Shown one piece after another: positions 551 through 25,272 of a DNA stretch of 30,319 nucleotides. The notes under the pieces are model-generated. The model saw only the letters and a list, made by a program, of their open reading frames with translations. It ran no database searches and was not told the DNA's origin. Position 1 is the first letter of the stretch; every line of letters starts with the position of its first letter. The stretch spans positions 1 to 30,319 of IMG/VR virus record IMGVR_UViG_3300020463_002949. One strand, written 5' to 3'. The translations under genes were made by a program, and so were the position numbers. Origin of the DNA: a virus.

Positions 551-1015
551 CTACTCACTATAACATGCTGCATTTTTACCGTGTTCCATAAATTTAACTT
601 TCGTTACCCTTACTCTATTATCGGTTTCAGCTTTGACAAAACTATTTAATTTAGTATAAATATATTCTGAAAATTTTTCTGCACCAGTAGCTGGGATTAT
701 TCTTACTTGGGCTACACCTGCTGCATCCATTTGTTTGAATGCCTTTAATTCGGGATCATCTTCAGCTATAATCATAGTATGATCAAACATATAATCCATC
801 CAAGCTTTAGGTTGTTTTCCATCAATTAAAGTTTTAGCACGTTTCATTCCTCCAAAATCCCAAACCCAATTTCTTTCGTCTAGGTCACCTTCAAAATAAA
901 CTTTAAATGAAATACCATAACCATGTACAAATCTACAGTGTGTTGTTTTAGCTTTCCATTGACGAAACACTGTACTAAACCCGTCAAATACTTTGCTTGA
1001 TTGAAATTTACCCAT
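551..1015 (-). CDS. queD: 6-carboxy-5,6,7,8-tetrahydropterin synthase (QueD-like)
   Basis: Predicted to convert 7,8-dihydroneopterin triphosphate, the FolE product, to 6-carboxy-tetrahydropterin, the QueE substrate. The 154-aa length fits the 6-pyruvoyl-tetrahydropterin synthase fold. The motif THCRFVHGY gives C27 as candidate catalytic cysteine with H26 and H31 nearby. LDERNWVWDFGG (45-56), FDHT (77-80) and the C-terminal MEHGKNAACY (143-152) match the family's DFG, catalytic Asp-His and substrate Glu regions. Classical QueD has HGH for two zinc ligands; here the second His is Tyr33, so zinc binding must differ or use another residue. The start overlaps the end of the thioredoxin gene by 8 bp, so the two are probably co-translated. 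No folE is visible in the window. Confidence 0.85.
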   Translation of the reverse strand: MGKFQSSKVFDGFSTVFRQWKAKTTHCRFVHGYGISFKVYFEGDLDERNWVWDFGGMKRAKTLIDGKQPKAWMDYMFDHTMIIAEDDPELKAFKQMDAAGVAQVRIIPATGAEKFSEYIYTKLNSFVKAETDNRVRVTKVKFMEHGKNAACYSE

Positions 1016-1256
1016 TATAAAATTTTAAAATTGTTTCATCTGGTTGTACTCCTACCATTCTATTTAATTCAGTACCATTACTATCTATTAATACCAAAGA
1101 AGGTACATTTCTAACTCCATATTTCATAGATAAATCTTGATTATCATCAACATCAATTTTTTCATAATTAATTTGACTAGATAGACTTTCCATTCTAGGT
1201 GCTAATGCTTTACATGGACCACACCATGAAGCTGTAAAATAAAGTATTTTTTTCAT
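1008..1256 (-). CDS. trxA: Thioredoxin (WCGPC)
   Basis: Small 82-aa cytosolic thioredoxin or glutaredoxin-like disulfide reductase. The redox motif WCGPC is at residues 11-15 after a short beta strand, and the cis-proline motif NVPS at 50-53; both are diagnostic. It is shorter than bacterial thioredoxin (about 105 aa), like many phage thioredoxins. It has no signal peptide. The gene sits between the 53-aa membrane protein and queD, overlapping queD by 8 bp. Plausible roles are re-reducing the phage ribonucleotide reductase, whose NrdA ends in a CVSC motif, or supporting the cysteine-dependent Que enzymes. The choice between them is inference. Confidence 0.9.
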   Translation of the reverse strand: MKKILYFTASWCGPCKALAPRMESLSSQINYEKIDVDDNQDLSMKYGVRNVPSLVLIDSNGTELNRMVGVQPDETILKFYNG

Positions 1257-1257
1257 A

Positions 1258-1419
1258 TTAAACTAATTCTTCGATTATACCAATTAATTCACTAAATATA
1301 AGAACTCCTACTGCAATTGGCAAGCTATATAGTAAAAGTCCATAACCAACTATTCTTATAGCGGATTTTGTAAAACTAATTCTTTGATGCTTATAAGCAT
1401 CGGGTAATTCTTGTAACAT
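1258..1419 (-). CDS. Small membrane protein (53 aa)
   Basis: Unrecognised 53-residue protein with one hydrophobic segment (about 26-46: VGYGLLLYSLPIAVGVLIFS) after a basic amphipathic N-terminus. The open frame extends upstream to 1497, but that extension is read out of the tRNA-Gln gene, so I take the ATG at 1419 as the start, 20 bp below the tRNA 3' end. It ends 1 bp before the thioredoxin gene. No function can be assigned. Confidence 0.5.
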   Translation of the reverse strand: MLQELPDAYKHQRISFTKSAIRIVGYGLLLYSLPIAVGVLIFSELIGIIEELV

Positions 1420-1439
1420 AATTTCTATTTTTAATTTAG

Positions 1440-1512
1440 TTGTCTCGACAGGTCTCGAACCTATACTCTTCTGGACCAAAACCAGACGTGTTACCAATTA
1501 CACCACGAGACA
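1440..1512 (-). tRNA. tRNA-Gln (anticodon TTG)
   Basis: The minus strand folds into a full cloverleaf. The 7-bp acceptor stem TGTCTCG/CGAGACA is fully paired. The D arm has stem GTG/CAC and a GG-containing loop. The anticodon stem is TCTGG/CCAGA with loop TTTTGGT, placing TTG at 34-36. The variable loop has 5 nt, and the T arm is ATAGG-TTCGAGA-CCTGT. The discriminator is A. No CCA is encoded (ACTAAA follows), so the host must add it. It lies inside the deazaguanine operon between queC and the 53-aa gene and would have to be cut from that transcript. Confidence 0.95.
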
Positions 1513-1519
1513 AATGTAT

Positions 1520-2314
1520 TTATGCTGAGTATTCAGCTAATACTTTTTCAACTGATGCTCTAGCTACTTCATAATCCACTGGACCAGTTTCGTCTTCATA
1601 TTGAACAGGGTCTTTCCTACCCAAAGCAATAAATGCCTCAATTCGTTCAACAGACGAAGCAGATTTATAATCACTGTTCCCACTAGGAAAAGGCTTATAA
1701 CTAGTATTAGTTCTAGAATAGACTTCATCAAATTTAATGTTTAATTTTTCACATAAAACTTCTCCATCTTTTAAAATACCAAATTTATCAGTATCTAAAT
1801 AAGGAGTAAAGTAACCTACTCTATCAGCTTCCCAATTACCAATTCTAAAAGCTGCATCATCTGCATCTCTAAATTCTTGTCTACAATCGGGATAAACAGC
1901 ATGATCACCTGCATGAATACCTAAAGCAATATCACAAGTCTCTTCTGTTCTATTTGCAATAGATAAAGCAACTGCTTGAGTAATAGAAGCAAACATTTTA
2001 TTTCTATTAGGTACAACTGTTTCTTTCATATTATCTTGCTCATAATGACCTTCTGGTACATCATCTCCTCCTGAAACTAGTGCTGAATCAAGTAAATCTA
2101 CTAATCCATCTAATTTAATTTGGCGATAATTTACTTTATGACCTTTATCTGCTAAATAATTAATTAAAGATTGAGCTCTTTCAAGTTCAACTCTATGTTT
2201 TTGACCATAGTCAAAAGAGATACCTGTTACAGTATCATATTCATTGATAGCTCTTAATAATAGGGTGCTGCTATCCATTCCACCACTTAACGAAACTACT
2301 ACGTGTTTTGCCAT
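1520..2314 (-). CDS. queC: QueC-like 7-deazaguanine ligase lacking the zinc cysteines
   Basis: A member of the QueC family (PP-loop ATPases), which convert CDG to preQ0 with ATP and ammonia via the amide ADG. The 264 residues start with the PP-loop motif SGGMDS (10-15). FDYGQKH (34-40), VPNRNKMF (101-108), LGIHAGD (131-137) and YPDCRQEF (141-148) are all typical QueC landmarks. Canonical QueC then has a C-terminal zinc site of the form SC...CGxCxxC. In this protein the aligned block (200-227, ending SSVERIEAF) has Ser205, Asp215, Ser218 and Ser221 in those four places and no cysteine, yet the flanking ERIEAF is preserved. It may therefore stop at ADG, catalyse a different step, or fold without zinc. 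It starts 4 bp after the 61-aa gene and is followed by tRNA-Gln. Confidence 0.85.
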   Translation of the reverse strand: MAKHVVVSLSGGMDSSTLLLRAINEYDTVTGISFDYGQKHRVELERAQSLINYLADKGHKVNYRQIKLDGLVDLLDSALVSGGDDVPEGHYEQDNMKETVVPNRNKMFASITQAVALSIANRTEETCDIALGIHAGDHAVYPDCRQEFRDADDAAFRIGNWEADRVGYFTPYLDTDKFGILKDGEVLCEKLNIKFDEVYSRTNTSYKPFPSGNSDYKSASSVERIEAFIALGRKDPVQYEDETGPVDYEVARASVEKVLAEYSA

Positions 2315-2317
2315 AAT

Positions 2318-2503
2318 TTACTTATTTAAAATTTGCCAGGTATTGTACGTATAGGCTAACGCTTGTTTAATTTTACATTTTATATATAGTCGAACATATG
2401 AAAAAATCGTTGATAATCCAAATCCTCCTATAAGAAGAGTCCAAAGATTTGGATGCCAATGTTCTCCACAAAATCCTAAACTATGCTTTATTACTTCTAT
2501 CAT
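2318..2503 (-). CDS. Small membrane protein overlapping dpdA (61 aa)
   Basis: Unrecognised 61-residue protein with one hydrophobic segment (about 20-37, WTLLIGGFGLSTIFSYV) and a basic tail (KCKIKQ). The N-terminal part carries a CGEHWHPN cluster that could bind a metal, but nothing more supports this. Its ATG lies inside the 3' end of dpdA (23-bp overlap) and its stop is 4 bp before queC, so it appears translationally coupled in the modification operon. Its role is unknown. Confidence 0.5.
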   Translation of the reverse strand: MIEVIKHSLGFCGEHWHPNLWTLLIGGFGLSTIFSYVRLYIKCKIKQALAYTYNTWQILNK

Positions 2504-3308
2504 ATATTTCTAATTGTTTAAATCCATTAATTTCTCTAAATTTACCTACATTAAATATTATATCTTCATATTTAACATCTTCAAATTTAATATCAAAAAA
2601 ATCATTCATATTAGCATTTGGTTTGTAATTCATACCATAACTACTATATCTAGTTCCATCTAGAGCTGCCATTACAGGATTAGAAGTATCAATTGATTCT
2701 ATTCTTTTAACAAAGTTTTGATCATCATACCATCCAAATTCTTGAGGTATTGAACAACCTAATAAATGAAATTTAATATCTTTTAATTGATCTAATTTAA
2801 GTAAACCCTGTACAAATCGTATTCTACCTAATGCTTTTCCCATATCTCCATTAGTATGTGGGAAAAAGTCATTATACCAAGTAGCACCATAAGATACACA
2901 TAATTTTTTATAACCTAACCCAGCTAATAGGTTTGCACATAAATATGCTTGGTTTTTATTTTCTCCCTGAATTACTGCTGTTATTTTTGTTTTTTTAGGA
3001 TATTTAAATTGAAGCCAATACTTAGCTTGAGCTGCTGTTTGAGCACAATTCATCCAAACATCTGGTACTATAAATTCATTTGGTTTTAATTCTGTAACCC
3101 AATAACGTAATCTATCGTAATCATATGCTTTACCTAACTCATGAAGTGAATTATCCATAATTACATATCTACCTTTATCTCTAGCATCAATAAAATATTG
3201 TTTATATTCTTCATCTATATCTAATAAATGAGGTAAACAATAATCGTAATCATTAAATTCAGGTGATGCTGTTAAAAGGCATTTAGGTACTTCGTGACTT
3301 ACTTTCAT
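2481..3308 (-). CDS. dpdA: DpdA-like DNA guanine transglycosylase (TGT-related)
   Basis: Predicted to swap guanine in phage DNA for a 7-deazaguanine base, as DpdA proteins of other phages do; they derive from tRNA-guanine transglycosylase (TGT). The 275 residues follow the TGT order. IMDNSLHELG (50-59) corresponds to the DSGGFQ loop with its catalytic Asp (D52), FIVPDVW (79-85) comes next, and AVIQGE (111-116) matches the VQGG loop. HLLGCSIPQEF (181-191) matches the GVGTP loop, and ESIDTSNP (204-211) puts D207 where the nucleophile is expected. I see no CxCxxC zinc motif of bacterial TGT. The start overlaps the upstream stop (ATGA). The linked queC, queD and queE genes would supply its substrate, which argues for DNA rather than tRNA modification. 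The exact DpdA subfamily cannot be told by eye. Confidence 0.8.
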   Translation of the reverse strand: MKVSHEVPKCLLTASPEFNDYDYCLPHLLDIDEEYKQYFIDARDKGRYVIMDNSLHELGKAYDYDRLRYWVTELKPNEFIVPDVWMNCAQTAAQAKYWLQFKYPKKTKITAVIQGENKNQAYLCANLLAGLGYKKLCVSYGATWYNDFFPHTNGDMGKALGRIRFVQGLLKLDQLKDIKFHLLGCSIPQEFGWYDDQNFVKRIESIDTSNPVMAALDGTRYSSYGMNYKPNANMNDFFDIKFEDVKYEDIIFNVGKFREINGFKQLEIYDRSNKA

Positions 3309-3940: not shown

Positions 3941-4108
3941 TTAATAACCCATTTCACATCTTAGTTCATAAGCATCTTGTTGAGCTTGAGCAATAGCTTC
4001 TATATCCCAAGCTTCATCAGCAGTAACACAAATTTCTTCTGTGCCATTCCAAACAATTGCACATTCATCACCACTTAACTCATCTGTAAAAAATCTTAAT
4101 ACTTGCAT
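3941..4108 (-). CDS. Small acidic protein (55 aa)
   Basis: A 55-codon frame from ATG 4108: it begins MQVLRFFTDELSGDE and ends ELRCEMGY. It is acidic and probably helical in its second half. It is the first ORF after the putative promoter motif at 4149-4158, so it would head the modification operon. Small acidic leading ORFs of this kind are common in phage early operons, where some inhibit host proteins; nothing here shows which. Unrecognised. Confidence 0.5.
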   Translation of the reverse strand: MQVLRFFTDELSGDECAIVWNGTEEICVTADEAWDIEAIAQAQQDAYELRCEMGY

Positions 4109-4148
4109 AACCTTTATTTAATGCGTTGACTTAATTATCAACAGGGTA

Positions 4149-4158
4149 AATATACGAA
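4149..4158 (-). promoter_or_regulatory. Putative early/middle promoter motif TTCGTATATT
   Basis: The minus strand reads GTTCGTATATTTACCC, 41 bp upstream of ATG 4108. The same decamer TTCGTATATT occurs in two other intergenic gaps (16617-16626 and 18384-18393), each before replication genes. TATATT may serve as a -10 element. It lies just below the stop of the 65-aa membrane gene (4166) and would start the deazaguanine operon. It is recognised by repetition and position only. Confidence 0.5.
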
Positions 4159-4165
4159 CTTTTAT

Positions 4166-4363
4166 TTAGGTATCCAAATCTTTCTTGGATTGATTATAAT
4201 CAAGAAAAAAACCAACTGCTACTATTATATTCATACCTACAGAAGCTCCAATTTCTACTAAATCATGGAAATTATGAATTGATAAGTGAATGTGACCTAC
4301 AACCCAAAAGGGGATAGCTAAGTTTTGGCTGATCCAAACTATAAGGAATTTTAAAAACTTCAC
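4166..4363 (-). CDS. Small two-helix membrane protein (65 aa)
   Basis: A 65-residue protein with two hydrophobic stretches (about 4-22 and 41-54), joined by a His-rich loop (VGHIHLSIHNFHD), and a charged tail DYNQSKKDLDT. The start codon is GTG and overlaps the stop of the 357-aa gene (TAGTG), so it is probably translated by coupling. Its function is unknown. Together with the upstream gene it may form a membrane module. Confidence 0.55.
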   Translation of the reverse strand: MKFLKFLIVWISQNLAIPFWVVGHIHLSIHNFHDLVEIGASVGMNIIVAVGFFLDYNQSKKDLDT

Positions 4364-5436
4364 TATTTTTTAATTTTTTTAAGCTGTTCCCTTAGTGGTT
4401 CTTCATGTTTTGTGGTATCATAACTAGTACTACCTAATTCTCCTAATCTATCTAATATTAGTTGTTCTTCATCAGATACAATTTCATCATAGTGTTCTCC
4501 TTCATTTCCATTTTGACCTATAATTTCCATTCTTTTTTCATCATCATCCGAGTAATTATCAAATACATTAGGTTTATCCTTTACTTCTACTTTTTCTTCG
4601 TATAAGTTTTCTCTATATTTTTTTTTGGGAAATGCCTGAAGCCAAGCAAAATTAGCTGCTATTACTAAAGATACTGCTAAGGGATCAAATACAAAAATAA
4701 TAATTAGTAGTAATACATTAATAATTTTATCCATTGGATAACCGGTAAGTCCTGATAGATACTTTAATGGGCCTAATTCTCCAGCTACTTCTACATTATT
4801 TTCTAGTTCTAATATTTTACGTTGGTATTTACGTAATGAATCCACTGCTATATCTCTTTTACCTTGAACATTTTTTCTATTTTCTTCTTCAGTTTCAATA
4901 CGTTTTGCGGCAAGTCTAAGTTCGGAAGTAGAGATTGTTGTTCTAATGCCCCCAACCACCGAGGTGTCTCGTACTTGGATTGACGAAGCTTTGGCATTAG
5001 AAAGAGTACTAATATTGTCCAATATTTGTTGAAGTTCTTTATCATATCTAATTAAATCTTGATCATAAAAATTTACTTTTTGTTGTATAAATTTTTTCTC
5101 ATTATCAACATAAGTTAATTGATTAAAAGTATCTTGATAAGCAGATGATAAAAACCCATAAATCCCCATACTTGTAATAAGAATTAAAATAATAACTGCT
5201 AAACTTAAATAATATTTAAGTATTTTATTTAATGTACCCCAATATTGGTATAATAAGGATGCTGTTACTAATTTAGCTACCTCTAAAGAACCAGCCATTA
5301 TTATCACTTCTGTACTAGCCCCAGCAAATAATTTACTTAACCCAAATACTGAATAAAATGCAGCTGAACCCGATACTGATAAAGCAGAAAATCCGATAAG
5401 GAAAGGTAAAAATCCTTTTTTTAAGTTTTTTAGCAT
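4363..5436 (-). CDS. Polytopic membrane protein with internal coiled coil (357 aa)
   Basis: Predicted integral membrane protein. Hydrophobic segments lie at about 11-36, 42-64 and 75-98, followed by a charged alpha-helical domain (about 110-215, rich in Lys, Glu and Gln, likely coiled coil). Another hydrophobic segment follows at about 235-262, then an acidic cytoplasmic tail ending EQLKKIKK. The layout, with helices flanking a long coiled-coil insert, resembles the DUF4407 type, but I make no firm family call. The start is 3 bp downstream of an ATATTTATAA box, so either the leader is very short or the box serves otherwise. It belongs to the envelope gene block. A role in membrane remodelling or superinfection exclusion is speculative. 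Confidence 0.65.
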   Translation of the reverse strand: MLKNLKKGFLPFLIGFSALSVSGSAAFYSVFGLSKLFAGASTEVIIMAGSLEVAKLVTASLLYQYWGTLNKILKYYLSLAVIILILITSMGIYGFLSSAYQDTFNQLTYVDNEKKFIQQKVNFYDQDLIRYDKELQQILDNISTLSNAKASSIQVRDTSVVGGIRTTISTSELRLAAKRIETEEENRKNVQGKRDIAVDSLRKYQRKILELENNVEVAGELGPLKYLSGLTGYPMDKIINVLLLIIIFVFDPLAVSLVIAANFAWLQAFPKKKYRENLYEEKVEVKDKPNVFDNYSDDDEKRMEIIGQNGNEGEHYDEIVSDEEQLILDRLGELGSTSYDTTKHEEPLREQLKKIKK

Positions 5437-5439
5437 GGT

Positions 5440-5447
5440 TATAAATA
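5440..5447 (-). promoter_or_regulatory. Late-type box ATATTTATAA
   Basis: The minus strand reads TTATATTTATAACC ending at ATG 5436. The core ATATTTAT is shared with six other gaps before structural or envelope genes. Here the box nearly touches the start codon, so this copy is the least convincing as a promoter. Confidence 0.3.
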
Positions 5448-5476
5448 TAAGAAAAATTTAGCTATAAGCCAAAGGA

Positions 5477-5959
5477 TTATTTATGTCTAATTTCAGTATC
5501 AAAGTCAATATACTTAACTCTAACCTGCTCTCCTTTTACAAGTGCATTAGCTATGATAGGATAAACTCTTTTATATGCCGATGTTGATCCACCTATAAAA
5601 CCTTCTTTATTAATATTTTGTTGGGATGTATCACCTAAAAGAAGACATCCTGCAGTATGTTCATCTGTATTTCCAGTATGCCATAAAATATATCTAAAAT
5701 TAGGTACATTTTGTACATGGAGCATTCCTTTATGAAATTTGCTACCATATTTTTTTAAATATCTATTATGAAAACCTCCATGTGTACGTAACTTTATTTC
5801 ATAAATACCTTCTGGTATTCTTGTTTCTGACATTACTTTAGTATCTCTAGCTTCATCCTCTAAAGTAAAACAAATAAATCTTCTGCCTTCTGTTACATTA
5901 AATAACATACCTAAGGTAGAATCATTTTGTGAGCTAAATCTTAAAACTTCTAATTTCAT
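5477..5959 (-). CDS. DUF5675-like protein, possible lysis enzyme
   Basis: The 160 residues match the pattern I know for DUF5675: FTLEDEARDTK (31-41), TRIPEGIYEIKLR (46-58), then GMLHVQNVPNFRYILWHTGNT (78-98) and HTAGCLLLGD (101-110). The His94...Gly-Cys105 arrangement recalls the HTG...GC active site of L,D-transpeptidase folds, so a peptidoglycan-linked activity is plausible. Phage genes of this family often lie near lysis genes. Here it is followed upstream by a 61-aa lipoprotein and a holin-like membrane protein, at spacings of 1 bp each. It has no signal peptide. The family is fairly sure; the enzymatic role is not established. Confidence 0.65.
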   Translation of the reverse strand: MKLEVLRFSSQNDSTLGMLFNVTEGRRFICFTLEDEARDTKVMSETRIPEGIYEIKLRTHGGFHNRYLKKYGSKFHKGMLHVQNVPNFRYILWHTGNTDEHTAGCLLLGDTSQQNINKEGFIGGSTSAYKRVYPIIANALVKGEQVRVKYIDFDTEIRHK

Positions 5960-5960
5960 A

Positions 5961-6146
5961 TTATTTTGTTACAAGTATTTGAATTGCATATATGATTAAT
6001 GCAGATGCAAGTAATTTCATTAATGGATCTTTACTTACAACTTTTTCTACTGTTGGTTCTGATTTTGGTATTACTGGCTTTGAAGAAGCACAACTAGGTA
6101 CTAGAAGTATTATACAAAATAATATTGTTATGATTCTTTTTTTCAT
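5961..6146 (-). CDS. Small lipoprotein (61 aa)
   Basis: The N-terminus MKKRIITILFCIILLVPSCAS has a basic start, a hydrophobic core and a lipobox (VPSC, Cys19), so signal peptidase II processing is predicted. After a Ser/Pro/Lys-rich spacer, a second hydrophobic stretch (about 42-59) ends at the C-terminus, which is odd for a lipoprotein. It sits between the DUF5675-like gene and the holin-like gene with 1-bp gaps. It could be an outer-membrane spanin part, although o-spanins normally lack such a C-terminal helix. Unknown otherwise. Confidence 0.6.
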   Translation of the reverse strand: MKKRIITILFCIILLVPSCASSKPVIPKSEPTVEKVVSKDPLMKLLASALIIYAIQILVTK

Positions 6147-6147
6147 T

Positions 6148-6489
6148 TTACCAATCGTCTCCGTCTATGTTAATATTAATACCCGGTCTTTCTTTTGGTT
6201 CTTCTGGTTCAGGAGCAGGCTCTTCAGCTGGTGCTGATGATTTATTACCAAATATTTTACCAATTTCAGCTATACCAAAACACCCTAAGGTAATAAATAA
6301 AAATGAATCATAAATAAATTCATTTATTACTAAATCTTCACCAAAATAACCAGTTATAAGATCTGCAAATGCAAATAATGTCATTATTGCAAAAGCAGCA
6401 AATCCAACTACTGATTTTTCATTTATATCATTTTTGTCGTTAAATAGATTTTTAAATGCCATTAATTTATTCTTTAATTTATTAAACAT
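6148..6489 (-). CDS. Holin-like two-helix membrane protein (113 aa)
   Basis: A basic N-terminus (MFNKLKNKLMAFKNLF) is followed by two hydrophobic segments (about 28-48 and 59-80) and a Pro/Glu-rich acidic tail (about 84-113, EEPAPEPEEPKE). Size, two helices and charged tail fit a class II holin, and the adjacent DUF5675-like gene supports a lysis cassette. No family was recognised for certain. It is preceded by a late-type box 28 bp upstream (6517-6524). Confidence 0.5.
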   Translation of the reverse strand: MFNKLKNKLMAFKNLFNDKNDINEKSVVGFAAFAIMTLFAFADLITGYFGEDLVINEFIYDSFLFITLGCFGIAEIGKIFGNKSSAPAEEPAPEPEEPKERPGININIDGDDW

Positions 6490-6516
6490 ATAATAACTTT
6501 TTGTAAAACGTTTTAT

Positions 6517-6524
6517 TATAAATA
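6517..6524 (-). promoter_or_regulatory. Late-type box ATATTTATAATAAAACG
   Basis: The minus strand reads ATATTTATAATAAAACGTTT between the lipoprotein stop (6527) and the holin-like ATG (6489). The same string, down to the trailing CGTTT, occurs before the 60-aa gene at 25303-25310. It contains TATAAT. On the opposite strand it reads TATAAATA, the T4 late-promoter octamer. Confidence 0.5.
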
Positions 6525-6526
6525 TA

Positions 6527-7084
6527 TTAATCTATTAAGTACCCATAAGGAGTAGATGCAATATCTAAACCTATAGGCCAGTTTTCTAATCTCATTGATA
6601 CTGTCATATTAGCTTGAATATAAGGATTATAAAATTCTCCTTCAGCAGTTAGACAAATCAAACCACTATGTGCCCCTCCTAATTGACCAGCATCTTGTAC
6701 TATTACTTCATTCCAAACTACATATTCATCATTTCCTGGTATTTCTACTCCAGCATATTTATTATCTGGTGCTTCCCAAGTATAAGTTCCTACGTCTAAT
6801 AATTCACCATCATCATTAGCATCATAGTCTAAACAGTATAATGCAAAGTGTTGTCTATCTAATCTTATTTCACCATCGTCTACTTGAAGATATAAAATAA
6901 AGATTTTTCTTAAATTTTCATCTACTAATTTAGATCCACCAAAAGTTTTTATTTGAGCATACCTGTCACGAGGATCAAAAGATTCTCCATTTAAACTAAT
7001 TTCAAAAATTGGTTCTAAAACTTCTTCTTCTTTCTCACACCCTAATAATAGGAATAAAACAATAAATAATAATAATTTTTTCAT
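6527..7084 (-). CDS. Predicted surface lipoprotein (185 aa)
   Basis: The signal sequence MKKLLLFIVLFLLLGC ends in a lipobox (LLGC, Cys16), so the mature protein is lipidated. The residues after the cysteine are EKEEEV. In Bacteroidota an acidic/lysine patch just after the +1 cysteine (C-x-K-(D/E)2 type) sends lipoproteins to the outer face of the outer membrane. The remaining 160 residues look like a beta-rich secreted domain (YDANDDGELLDVGTYTWE, later MTVSMRLENWPIG) with no family I recognise. It lies 1 bp from the exported thioredoxin-like gene. Phage lipoproteins elsewhere block receptors for superinfecting phage; a similar role here is inference. Confidence 0.7.
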   Translation of the reverse strand: MKKLLLFIVLFLLLGCEKEEEVLEPIFEISLNGESFDPRDRYAQIKTFGGSKLVDENLRKIFILYLQVDDGEIRLDRQHFALYCLDYDANDDGELLDVGTYTWEAPDNKYAGVEIPGNDEYVVWNEVIVQDAGQLGGAHSGLICLTAEGEFYNPYIQANMTVSMRLENWPIGLDIASTPYGYLID

Positions 7085-7085
7085 T

Positions 7086-7502
7086 TTAAAATTGGTTGGA
7101 TAATCTAGCTTCTGCTATAGCTTCTTTAACTTCTTCTAATGTAGCAGGGAAAAGTAAATCTAATCCTGCTTTAAATTTAAATAATATTTCTCCATCTACT
7201 ATAATAAATAAAGTTGGAGCCATTCTTACTCTATATTTTTTCTTTGCTATTGGGGCTTTTGCAATATCTACACGATAATATTGAACATCCTGCAGTTTAT
7301 CCCAATCTGCAAAACAATTAGCTTCGTTAAATTTAGCCCAATATTCAACAACTTTAATTTCTATTTCATCATCTCCAAATGCTTCTTTTCCATTTATTAC
7401 ATCTTCATAGTTAGAATCATCTAGCCAATATTTGTCAGGAACTTCACTTTGTCCAAAAAGAATTGAGGGGATTACCAGTAGTACTAATAATAATTTTTTC
7501 AT
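7086..7502 (-). CDS. Exported thioredoxin-fold protein without CXXC (138 aa)
   Basis: A signal peptide, MKKLLLVLLVIPSILFGQ, of a type common in Flavobacteriia (ending FGQ) predicts a periplasmic protein. The mature part follows the thioredoxin fold order: a strand IEIKVVEYWAKFNEANCF (48-65), then YYRVDIAKAP, and the cis-proline loop MAPTLFIIVDGE (93-104) before a C-terminal helix. The usual WCxxC position reads WAKFNEANC, with a single cysteine (Cys64), so it cannot act as a classical dithiol reductase. It may be a binding or chaperone version of the fold. It is the middle gene of an exported run (440-aa barrel, 94-aa, this, 185-aa lipoprotein) with gaps of 1-2 bp. Confidence 0.7.
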   Translation of the reverse strand: MKKLLLVLLVIPSILFGQSEVPDKYWLDDSNYEDVINGKEAFGDDEIEIKVVEYWAKFNEANCFADWDKLQDVQYYRVDIAKAPIAKKKYRVRMAPTLFIIVDGEILFKFKAGLDLLFPATLEEVKEAIAEARLSNQF

Positions 7503-7504
7503 AG

Positions 7505-7789
7505 TTATCTTTCTTTGGATACTTCGTACATGCGATCTTCTAGTTTATCTAATTTATCTAGAATCATTTCAACATCTTCTTGAGTATCCATAATTGTTTG
7601 TCGAATTAACTCATCCTTTAAGTCATATTCTACTCTTTCAATAACTGGTTCAGGTTGGGTTGCTGCGTAAGCGATATCTGCTTTTAATGTAAACCACATA
7701 CCTGCTAAAGAAATAACAAATGCTACTATCATTCCTATTGTTTTTAAATCTAAGGTTACTTTAGTATCCTCACCTATTTGCTTTGCCAT
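7505..7789 (-). CDS. Membrane-anchored coiled-coil protein (94 aa)
   Basis: A short N-terminal part is followed by one transmembrane segment (about 17-35, TIGMIVAFVISLAGMWFTL). The C-terminal half (50-94) is charged and helical, with heptad-like leucines and isoleucines (IMDTQEDVEMILDKLDKLED). This single-helix plus coiled-coil form is that of an inner-membrane spanin or other phage envelope connector. The nearby lipoprotein genes could supply an outer-membrane partner, but no pairing is proven. It lies 1 bp after the barrel gene. Confidence 0.55.
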   Translation of the reverse strand: MAKQIGEDTKVTLDLKTIGMIVAFVISLAGMWFTLKADIAYAATQPEPVIERVEYDLKDELIRQTIMDTQEDVEMILDKLDKLEDRMYEVSKER

Positions 7790-7790
7790 C

Positions 7791-9113
7791 TTATCTAAAT
7801 GTATAATTTATTCCAAAGGTTGAGTTGTAAAACTTTGTGTCCCACATTTTGTTATACTCTCCTTCTACGAATACTCCTAAATTTTTTCCAATTTTCCATC
7901 CAAAGTTAACACCAAATTGATAATCTTCCCATTGTTCAAATTCAGCATCTTGCCTTAATCCACCTTTGCCCCAGTTATTTCTATTACCATAATTAAAATC
8001 TCCATCACCTGATACGTAGCTATGGTATGGAGGTAAATAATTAGCGTAAGCGTGTAACCAAAAATTATTTTGGTAATGATAAAAATCAGCTCCAATAATA
8101 GGGGATACAACACCAAAAGCACCAATTAAATCCCATTGTTCGTTATTAAATCTATTAACTAAATCTCTAAATACCGTATTACGAAAATCTAAATCAGAAT
8201 AGGCAACTATTTGGTTTTGAGGATTATACCAATACCAATCATAATTTGTTACTTCTTCTCCTGTTTCTGGATCATAACTAGTTGATTCATATCCTACATC
8301 TGTAAACCCATATTGGTATCCTAAAGAGTACCATGGGTTTGATGGAAATTCAATTGGGTTACCATTTTCATCTAAGAATGGGTTACCATTTTGATCAAAA
8401 AACTGTTCAGTTTCATTTAACCATATTTCAATTGGATTATAACCATAAGCTCGCTCATGTGTTCTATAAATTGCTCCAGCACTAATACTAAATTTCTTTC
8501 CAATAGGTAATCTAGCTCTTAATTCAGCTGATTTATAAGAAAAGTCAAATGTTCCTTGTTCTCTGGATTCTATTTTTGCAATATGGTACTTTCCTGTGTG
8601 TCTTAAAAAATATCTCCAATTAGTAAATTCTTCTCCTCTTAATCTTTCTTTTTCAAAATGAAATAAATATTCGAATCCATCTACTGCTGATGTAGGAGCT
8701 GATAATGCCTGTTGGTTTTCTCTATATGCATTACCTGTCCAAAAGTTATTAGGTTTTCTTTCATAACCAAATCTACCTAATTTTCTAATACCAACTCCAT
8801 ACCTATAGTCAAAATCAAAATAATCTGTTACTTCAACTACTCTTGGAACACCATATAAATCACCATCAGCTGGTCTTTCTATAAAATAATCTTTTCTTGA
8901 GTTTTCATACGCATTTCTAATATCTCCAGCTGCATATATAGTTCCATATTTTAAAAAATCTTTATAAACATCTTTAAAAAATGTAAATGGTTTTTTATCT
9001 TTTTTAATTTCAATTGTTTCTGATTGTGAAGATACTGGGATTAAAGGACCATCCTGACTGTATGTAGATGTTGTCAGTAACAATATAAGTACTAATAATG
9101 TTAATTTTTTCAT
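7791..9113 (-). CDS. Outer-membrane beta-barrel protein with signal peptide (440 aa)
   Basis: A typical Bacteroidota signal peptide (MKKLTLLVLILLLTTSTYSQ, cleavage likely after Gln20) precedes a long mature part dominated by alternating aromatic/polar strands. It ends in a barrel-like last strand, STFGINYTFR, with phenylalanine at the penultimate position as in many outer-membrane proteins. Examples of strands are FEYLFHFEKERL, GTFDFSYKSAELRARL, KFSISAGAIY and GVFVEGEY. A hydrophilic loop carries a doubled D-x-NGNP motif (DQNGNPF, DENGNPI; about 239-252), possibly calcium binding. This is not a virion-type protein; it should go to the host outer membrane during infection. It is preceded by a late-type box and a terminator, so it heads the envelope operon. 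Phage-encoded porins are known elsewhere (Lc of phage PA-2). Function here is unknown. Confidence 0.75.
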   Translation of the reverse strand: MKKLTLLVLILLLTTSTYSQDGPLIPVSSQSETIEIKKDKKPFTFFKDVYKDFLKYGTIYAAGDIRNAYENSRKDYFIERPADGDLYGVPRVVEVTDYFDFDYRYGVGIRKLGRFGYERKPNNFWTGNAYRENQQALSAPTSAVDGFEYLFHFEKERLRGEEFTNWRYFLRHTGKYHIAKIESREQGTFDFSYKSAELRARLPIGKKFSISAGAIYRTHERAYGYNPIEIWLNETEQFFDQNGNPFLDENGNPIEFPSNPWYSLGYQYGFTDVGYESTSYDPETGEEVTNYDWYWYNPQNQIVAYSDLDFRNTVFRDLVNRFNNEQWDLIGAFGVVSPIIGADFYHYQNNFWLHAYANYLPPYHSYVSGDGDFNYGNRNNWGKGGLRQDAEFEQWEDYQFGVNFGWKIGKNLGVFVEGEYNKMWDTKFYNSTFGINYTFR

Positions 9114-9170: not shown

Positions 9171-9178
9171 TATAAATA
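9171..9178 (-). promoter_or_regulatory. Late-type box CATATTTATAG
   Basis: The minus strand reads TTTTTTCATATTTATAGG directly below the terminator at 9181-9207 and 58 bp upstream of ATG 9113. The T-tract followed by CATATTTATA also occurs at 27652-27668, so terminator plus box forms a repeated module. Confidence 0.45.
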
Positions 9179-9180
9179 TG

Positions 9181-9207
9181 AAAAAAGGAGATGCTAGTGC
9201 ATCTCCT
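9181..9207 (-). terminator. Rho-independent terminator after the replication operon
   Basis: A perfect 9-bp stem (AGGAGATGC, loop ACTA on the transcribed strand, GCATCTCCT) is followed on the minus strand by a run of T. It lies 26 bp below the stop of the 76-aa gene and just above the late-type box of the barrel gene, cleanly separating the two transcription units. Confidence 0.85.
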
Positions 9208-9233
9208 CTTAATTTTCCTTGTAATCTTTTATA

Positions 9234-16570: not shown

Positions 16571-16616
16571 AAATGTAACTAATTTTTAATTTTATAACTT
16601 TTGTTAATGTAAACAC

Positions 16617-16626
16617 AATATACGAA
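16617..16626 (-). promoter_or_regulatory. Putative early/middle promoter motif TTCGTATATT
   Basis: The minus strand reads GGTTCGTATATTGTG, 47 bp upstream of the SSB start (16570), in a 76-bp gap. It shares the decamer with 4149-4158 and 18384-18393. The following AT-rich leader has no Shine-Dalgarno sequence. A GC-rich 5-bp hairpin (16633-16646) lies just upstream of it. Confidence 0.5.
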
Positions 16627-16646
16627 CCATAATTTGGGGGGCCAAA

Positions 16647-18363: not shown

Positions 18364-18383
18364 ATAACCTTATTTTGACCCCT

Positions 18384-18393
18384 AATATACGAA
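18384..18393 (-). promoter_or_regulatory. Putative early/middle promoter motif TTCGTATATT
   Basis: The minus strand reads GTTTCGTATATTAGGGG, 21 bp upstream of the polymerase start (18363) and just after the stop of the last virion gene (18399). It is the third copy of the decamer and marks the switch from structural to replication genes. Confidence 0.5.
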
Positions 18394-18398
18394 ACTAT

Positions 18399-25089: not shown

Positions 25090-25272
25090 TTAAGATGCGT
25101 TACCTGTGGTATCTACTGCTCTTGGTGTATCTGAAATAGTATCTATATAAGTACCTGCTTCAAATGAATTATTAATTGGAATAGCACCGCTTTGTAATGG
25201 AGCAGATGGTTTATTTCCTTTTAATGGAGATAATGTAGTACCTGTAGTTTCTAATTTATTTAGTAAAGGCAT
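25090..25272 (-). CDS. Small protein in the tail operon (60 aa)
   Basis: Unrecognised, Pro/Thr/Ser-rich and without hydrophobic segments (starts MPLLNKLETTGTTLSPLKG). It lies between the tape measure and the 700-aa gene and has its own late-type box 31 bp upstream (25303-25310), supporting that it is expressed. It may be a minor virion or assembly protein. Confidence 0.5.
   Translation of the reverse strand: MPLLNKLETTGTTLSPLKGNKPSAPLQSGAIPINNSFEAGTYIDTISDTPRAVDTTGNAS

Follow-up and report, generated by a model that had tools for sequence, protein, structure and literature searches.

An obligate barrel, anchor and thioredoxin-fold gene trio in ocean phages and its possible role in late disruption of the host envelope

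Why would a tailed phage carry a tight run of genes for proteins of its host's envelope? This question is raised by a 30.3-kb tailed-phage fragment of 30% G+C (IMG/VR record IMGVR_UViG_3300020463_002949, positions 1 to 30,319; the whole stretch is called the window), in which the minus strand holds every gene used here. Positions 5477-9113 of that strand form a run of envelope genes that the first-pass annotation of the window had read as a single island, devoted to superinfection exclusion, nutrient uptake or organised lysis. All of the envelope proteins it named are present on the minus strand, and the small gaps between their genes are real, at 1, 2, 1, 37, 1 and 1 bp from the first gene, B, through DUF5675. 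The run thus exists as described, but an obligate module within it had been missed. It has two parts: B, A and T (7086-9113), and the genes lp185, hol113, lp61, DUF5675 and CC357 (4363-7084). The three genes of the first part are as follows.

7791..9113, minus strand: B, predicted exported outer-membrane beta-barrel, 440 residues, 12 predicted strands
7505..7789, minus strand: A, predicted inner-membrane anchor, 94 residues, one transmembrane segment (17-35) and a C-terminal predicted coiled coil of ~59 residues
7086..7502, minus strand: T, predicted exported protein with a thioredoxin fold, without CxxC, cis-Pro (APT) retained

Linkage and distribution of B, A and T

Matches to these genes in IMG/VR, where the loci are fragments, comprised 29 loci in a first scan and 406 related stretches in a profile scan, while scans with T and with A returned 299 and at least 530, respectively. 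IMG/VR thus contains at least 400-530 stretches, from hundreds of uncultured ocean viruses, that match genes of the trio. Locus groups were made non-redundant at 90% barrel identity and were counted if B was flanked on either side by 1.8 kb or more; A and T both lay alongside B in every one of them (80/80). When the search was started from T, 71 of 80 loci were complete and the remaining nine had almost no upstream DNA. When it was started from A, 75 of 77 were complete and the remaining two stopped at the locus edge, and neither search returned a complete exception to the linkage. The order of the genes varied (BAT, ATB, ATBAT and BAAT), with A-T adjacency kept throughout, and so did their neighbours, which included ribonucleotide reductase (RNR) genes on the opposite strand, M15 endolysins, holins, and head or tail genes. 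Because both order and neighbours change, the link must be more than shared ancestry of a genome region, and we conclude that B, A and T are an obligate module. The ATBAT layout, in which two divergent A-T pairs surround one B (L056, L065, L067, L072, L100 and others), would suit a complex with two distinct A-T arms.

The trio is widespread and phage-specific. It is not described in Pfam, PHROGs or PADLOC, and it occurs in several phage types, one of which is a tailed phage with a contractile sheath. Searches of 50,697 cultured-phage records by tblastn (E<=1 to 10) gave nothing real for B, A, T or lp185. Among 84,980 genomes, B was found in two, one of which (L104, close in kind to the viral locus L013) is clearly a phage contig; the other (L105), with GroEL and one weak PHROG match, is less clear and is probably one as well. 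With so few genome matches, an origin of B as a host gene was rejected. A role in defence or anti-defence was likewise rejected, since PADLOC gave no match.

Predicted properties of the three proteins

In 83 of 86 unique B proteins and in 81 of 84 unique T proteins, the residue following the signal peptide is Gln, which is the Q-rule of Bacteroidetes (PMC5837995). The window recombinase, in addition, shares 62% identity with its counterpart in Flavobacterium phage vB_FspM_immuto (hereafter immuto). Because of the Q-rule and this kinship, the sequences point to Bacteroidota as hosts of the trio phages.

An AlphaFold2 model of B built from 84 sequences had 12 long strands and a mean predicted local distance difference test score (pLDDT) of 79.7. 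Its Foldseek matches in the PDB were outer-membrane barrels and pores with low TM-scores, including NanC, other small-solute pores and autotransporter barrels. With an export signal and a modelled closed beta-barrel fold, B is predicted to be an outer-membrane barrel. The aromatic last residue was not seen as a rule among 77 ends, of which 59 are F-R or F-K and one is a final F. BFVD contains one clear structural relative, A0A516LKJ4 (E 1.7e-25, 25% identity); no TonB-type plug, family match or sequence relation to a named family was found for B. Several strands carry one near-invariant polar or charged face, which we take to be lumen-facing. The large loops, assigned to the outside by usual barrel topology, are conserved about as well as the rest rather than hypervariable, and B keeps 55-60% identity over many phage types.

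A profile search against PDB sequences placed T in the thioredoxin fold (E 3.9e-12). Like the thioredoxin family (PF00085) it has this fold and the cis-Pro, but unlike that family it is exported and lacks CxxC in all 84 sequences (0/84). Judged by its sequence, then, T has the fold of a thioredoxin without being one. Because CxxC is missing throughout, a working oxidoreductase was rejected, and T is probably a binding part instead.

Exactly one transmembrane segment was predicted in all 88 A sequences. Lys and Arg are richer before this segment than after it in 55 sequences and poorer in none. By the positive-inside rule, A would therefore be oriented N-in/C-out with its coiled coil in the periplasm. 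A family search found no transporter or ATPase domain in A. Some A proteins have a calcium-loop-like insert before the transmembrane segment (DLDGDGKAD at L025:9155-9475 and DIDGDGKSD at L007:9191-9523).

Timing, lysis genes and the function of the module

The second part of the run and the regulatory elements around it are listed here, since both bear on when the module is expressed and on what it may do.

6527..7084, minus strand: lp185, lipoprotein with the surface-export motif C-EKEEE, predicted surface-exposed
6148..6489, minus strand: hol113, holin-like, two transmembrane segments, homologue of immuto gp192
5961..6146, minus strand: lp61, small lipoprotein with a lipobox and a C-terminal transmembrane segment
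5477..5959, minus strand: DUF5675 (PF18925), possible endolysin, judged by its position and a weak likeness to Tlde1
4363..5436, minus strand: CC357, coiled-coil membrane protein with several transmembrane segments and a late box of its own, homologous to immuto gp185
9171..9178, minus strand: late box TATTTATA, 65 nt 5' of B
6517..6524, minus strand: late box TATTTATA, 35 nt 5' of hol113
5440..5447, minus strand: late box TATTTATA, 11 nt 5' of CC357
9183..9210, minus strand: intrinsic terminator between the nrdAB/tm89 operon and the B operon (81-nt fold, z = -4.7)

The late-type boxes that had been noted earlier proved to be real. On the gene strand, TATTTATA was present in 6 of 13 intergenic gaps, with 0.32 expected and a maximum of 3 in 2000 shuffles, and it lay 5' of the tail tube, the presumed tape measure, 25090-25272, B, hol113 and CC357. 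In gene direction it is the reverse of the T4 late box TATAAATA. The T4-type late promoter itself is not present on the gene strand of the window, and a T4 late box was rejected on the wrong orientation and on the presence of TATTTATA in its place. Boxes of the same type stand in immuto 5' of the sheath, tube, tape-measure, portal and terminase genes and of gp192. In most immuto-like marine loci a box-like sequence precedes B, or hol113 when hol113 leads into B, the loci without one being L053, L054, L058 and L087. Because the box also precedes tail genes, both here and in immuto, late expression of B and hol113 is likely. The terminator at 9183-9210 separates the B operon from the upstream nrdAB operon. 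Taken with the +1 Gln, the lipoboxes and the surface-export signal of lp185, the boxes support the Sec export, envelope location and late timing that the first-pass annotation had proposed. A second promoter-like element, TTCGTATATT, distinct from TATTTATA, stands before ssb, a polymerase-like gene and 3941-4108 (regions 16571-16646, 18364-18398 and 4109-4165).

Lysis genes were recognised through Pfam or PHROGs (M15, amidase, Phage_holin_4_1 below its cut-off, phrog_3427 and phrog_33083). Within 1.5 kb downstream of the trio they occurred at 5.2 per 10 kb, compared with 0.2-0.4 per 10 kb at 3-8 kb, an enrichment of ~15-fold that is inflated, because the lysis families were picked from clusters in these same loci. 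They lay on the strand of the trio in 106 cases and on the opposite strand in 4; for nrdA the corresponding counts were 18 and 49. A lysis gene was found within 2.5 kb of the trio in 47 of 67 groups, always on the same strand.

The best explanation that we can offer, put forward tentatively, is that A, T and B, all phage-encoded, assemble into an obligate complex spanning the host envelope, made late and acting in lysis. The physical complex, the topology of A and the lysis role are what we infer here. A would sit in the inner membrane and extend its coiled coil into the periplasm, T would serve as a redox-dead periplasmic adaptor, and B would form the outer-membrane part. Together with the neighbouring holin and endolysin the complex would act in the last lysis step: once the peptidoglycan is cut, the A-T-B bridge would perturb the outer membrane or pull on it through B, which would take the place held by the lipoprotein in a classical spanin. 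Of the three functions first proposed for the island, organised lysis is accordingly the one best supported, by linkage to lysis genes, co-direction and the late box.

The likeness to two-component spanins (lambda Rz/Rz1, P2 LysB/LysC, T4 PseT.3/PseT.2) goes some way. A has the type II inner-membrane topology of an inner-membrane spanin, with an N-terminal transmembrane segment and a predicted periplasmic coiled coil, both read from its sequence; the trio is linked to holin and endolysin genes; and an outer-membrane partner is present. That partner, however, is a beta-barrel rather than a lipoprotein, there is a third obligate protein, T, in the periplasm, and A has no Cys. We found no sequence similarity between the trio and two-component spanins. 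Since the obligate partner B would be processed by signal peptidase I, whereas the lipoprotein lp185 is not obligate and bears a surface-export motif, the trio is not a known spanin, and our claim is limited to its working like one. The phage-encoded outer-membrane barrels lambda Lom, PA-2 Lc/NmpC and those of phiAS5 and cyanophage S-CAM3 resemble B in being barrels with a phage gene; to our knowledge they act alone, whereas B is always tied to A and T.

The spanin literature has yet to explain how 'spanin-less' phages, including marine flavobacteria phages (Croceibacter P2559S/Y), break the outer membrane, and an outer-membrane protein has been considered conceivable there as an outer-membrane spanin (PMC6139136). 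The trio is a concrete candidate for this step, with an exact gene set. The more specific claim, that B-A-T is a third architecture for outer-membrane disruption, a three-part spanin in which the lipoprotein gives way to a barrel reached by way of a redox-dead thioredoxin adaptor, we consider doubtful; if true, it would be the outer-membrane lysis route of many marine Bacteroidota phages. If the function differs, the trio is still an obligate trans-envelope set kept by several phage types, marking an unknown infection step in major marine bacteria. The trio may be a so far unrecognised machine that breaks or remodels the host outer envelope.

Besides the inflated enrichment, several points weigh against a lysis complex. 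The gene lp61, in the same operon, has the topology of a unimolecular spanin, and according to one survey Bacteroidetes phages use only unimolecular spanins (PMC12596118), so that this phage may already have a means of disrupting the outer membrane. In ~30% of groups no recognised lysis gene lies within 2.5 kb, and some trios sit in a head/tail gene block (L020) or beside RNR genes. A is short, with 59 residues past its transmembrane segment, and is devoid of Cys. The lumen of B, near-invariant as it is, suggests a channel or a site for a plug more than it does a passive anchor. In mirror-tree comparisons B distances tracked those of A or T no better than those of nrdA, although the A-T value was 0.76 in one set.

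The main rival, which we hold to be unlikely, is late surface remodelling. In this case B and lp185 would mask or replace receptors while A and T powered or placed the complex; progeny would be spared re-adsorption or loss to debris, as with T5 Llp, or superinfection would be excluded. It draws on lp185, a common fourth partner that often lies within the trio, and on the large B loops predicted to lie outside. The motif C-x-K-[DE][DE] occurred in 25 of 27 distinct mature N termini of lp185 and in 2 of 30 other lipoprotein candidates. In Capnocytophaga, C-X-K-(D/E)2-X is the optimal signal for lipoprotein surface export (PMC5080379). The mature start of lp185, C-E-K-E-E-E, fits this consensus, and lp185 is predicted to be a surface lipoprotein with a lipoprotein export signal (LES), unlike others of Bacteroidota in being a phage gene without a Pfam family. 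It is not obligate, however: most trios lack it, and in one clade it occurs with no trio nearby. Exclusion proteins usually follow receptor diversity, whereas the outer loops of B are as conserved as the rest of this widely shared protein, and the late box speaks against classical exclusion. Superinfection exclusion, the second of the functions first proposed, therefore fits less well than lysis. No known exclusion family, such as Cor or Llp, was matched, and PADLOC returned none; a Cor match (E 0.11) covers residues 1-21, which are signal peptide only.

A phage transport system, with an outer-membrane channel, a periplasmic adaptor and an inner-membrane anchor for nutrient import or product export, seems improbable. 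The near-invariant polar or charged lumen and the Foldseek matches to small-solute pores such as NanC and to autotransporter barrels would suit it, but A has a single transmembrane segment and no transporter or ATPase domain, B has no TonB-type plug or family match, and late expression leaves little time for a benefit from uptake. Nutrient uptake, also proposed at first, gained no positive evidence, is unlikely, and was rejected as the main function on the lack of transporter parts and the late box. It is very improbable that the proteins are parts of the virion or of genome ejection, such as a component of a trans-envelope ejection tube: the trio of several phages comes after giant proteins presumed to belong to the virion, or sits among head/tail genes (L020), but B and T carry Sec signals with the Bacteroidota +1 Gln, and the trio is spread over several phage types including the one with a contractile sheath. 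Least credible of all is an accident of linkage in marine phage genomes with an unrelated function for each gene, which the mirror-tree result would allow and which the 80/80 co-occurrence in several gene orders among changing neighbours contradicts.

The remaining genes and the immuto counterpart

The genes that follow the trio are consistent with a lysis segment. The holin-like assignment of hol113 rests on topology and position, and its homologue in immuto, gp192, adjoins the immuto endolysin and holin; gp185, the homologue of CC357, lies near the immuto lysis genes. DUF5675, which the first-pass annotation had not named, weakly matches the Tlde1 domain and, from this and its position, is a possible endolysin. 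Like the unimolecular spanin T1 gp11, lp61 combines a lipobox with a C-terminal transmembrane segment and has no Cys in its periplasmic stretch. It differs from gp11 in that ~22 residues separate lipobox and transmembrane segment and in that Cys is present in its relatives; the trio has no relation to gp11. One lp61 relative gave weak PHROG spanin matches. Near CC357, some trio phages have an overlapping gene pair (L026:12620-13298, L186:2826-3489) encoding a protein with a transmembrane segment and a coiled coil and an exported protein with a C-terminal transmembrane segment, possibly a separate spanin-like pair.

The tail sheath, tail tube and hub genes of the window were identified via Pfam or PHROGs, and its gene order is immuto-like, running from the tail sheath through replication genes to nrdB and nrdA. 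The window departs from immuto 3' of nrdA, where a small transmembrane gene and a strong terminator precede the envelope island. The syntenic place in immuto (L031:9935-16409) holds a nuclease, a C-type lectin and a cohesin protein bearing the Por_Secre_tail domain for sorting to type IX secretion, an unusual case of phage-encoded type IX cargo, all exported proteins; they are followed by gp016, an inner-membrane anchor, and by two further exported proteins, gp017 and gp018, the second of which may be barrel-like. Distant homology of gp016-gp018 to A, T and B was rejected: with hhalign, gp017 and gp018 had no homology to the trio, and A against gp016 gave a weak local match, so that the immuto genes are analogues at best. 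Immuto gp019 (L031:15954-16409) is homologous (E 6e-50) to an exported protein found directly before B or before hol113 and B in marine phages such as L037, L088 and L091.

Elsewhere in the window, 551-3308 encodes QueD, QueC and a DpdA-like transglycosylase candidate, which suggests 7-deazaguanine DNA modification in this phage. Immuto has annotated DpdA, FolE and QueC/D/E/F, and part of QueE may lie at the left window end.

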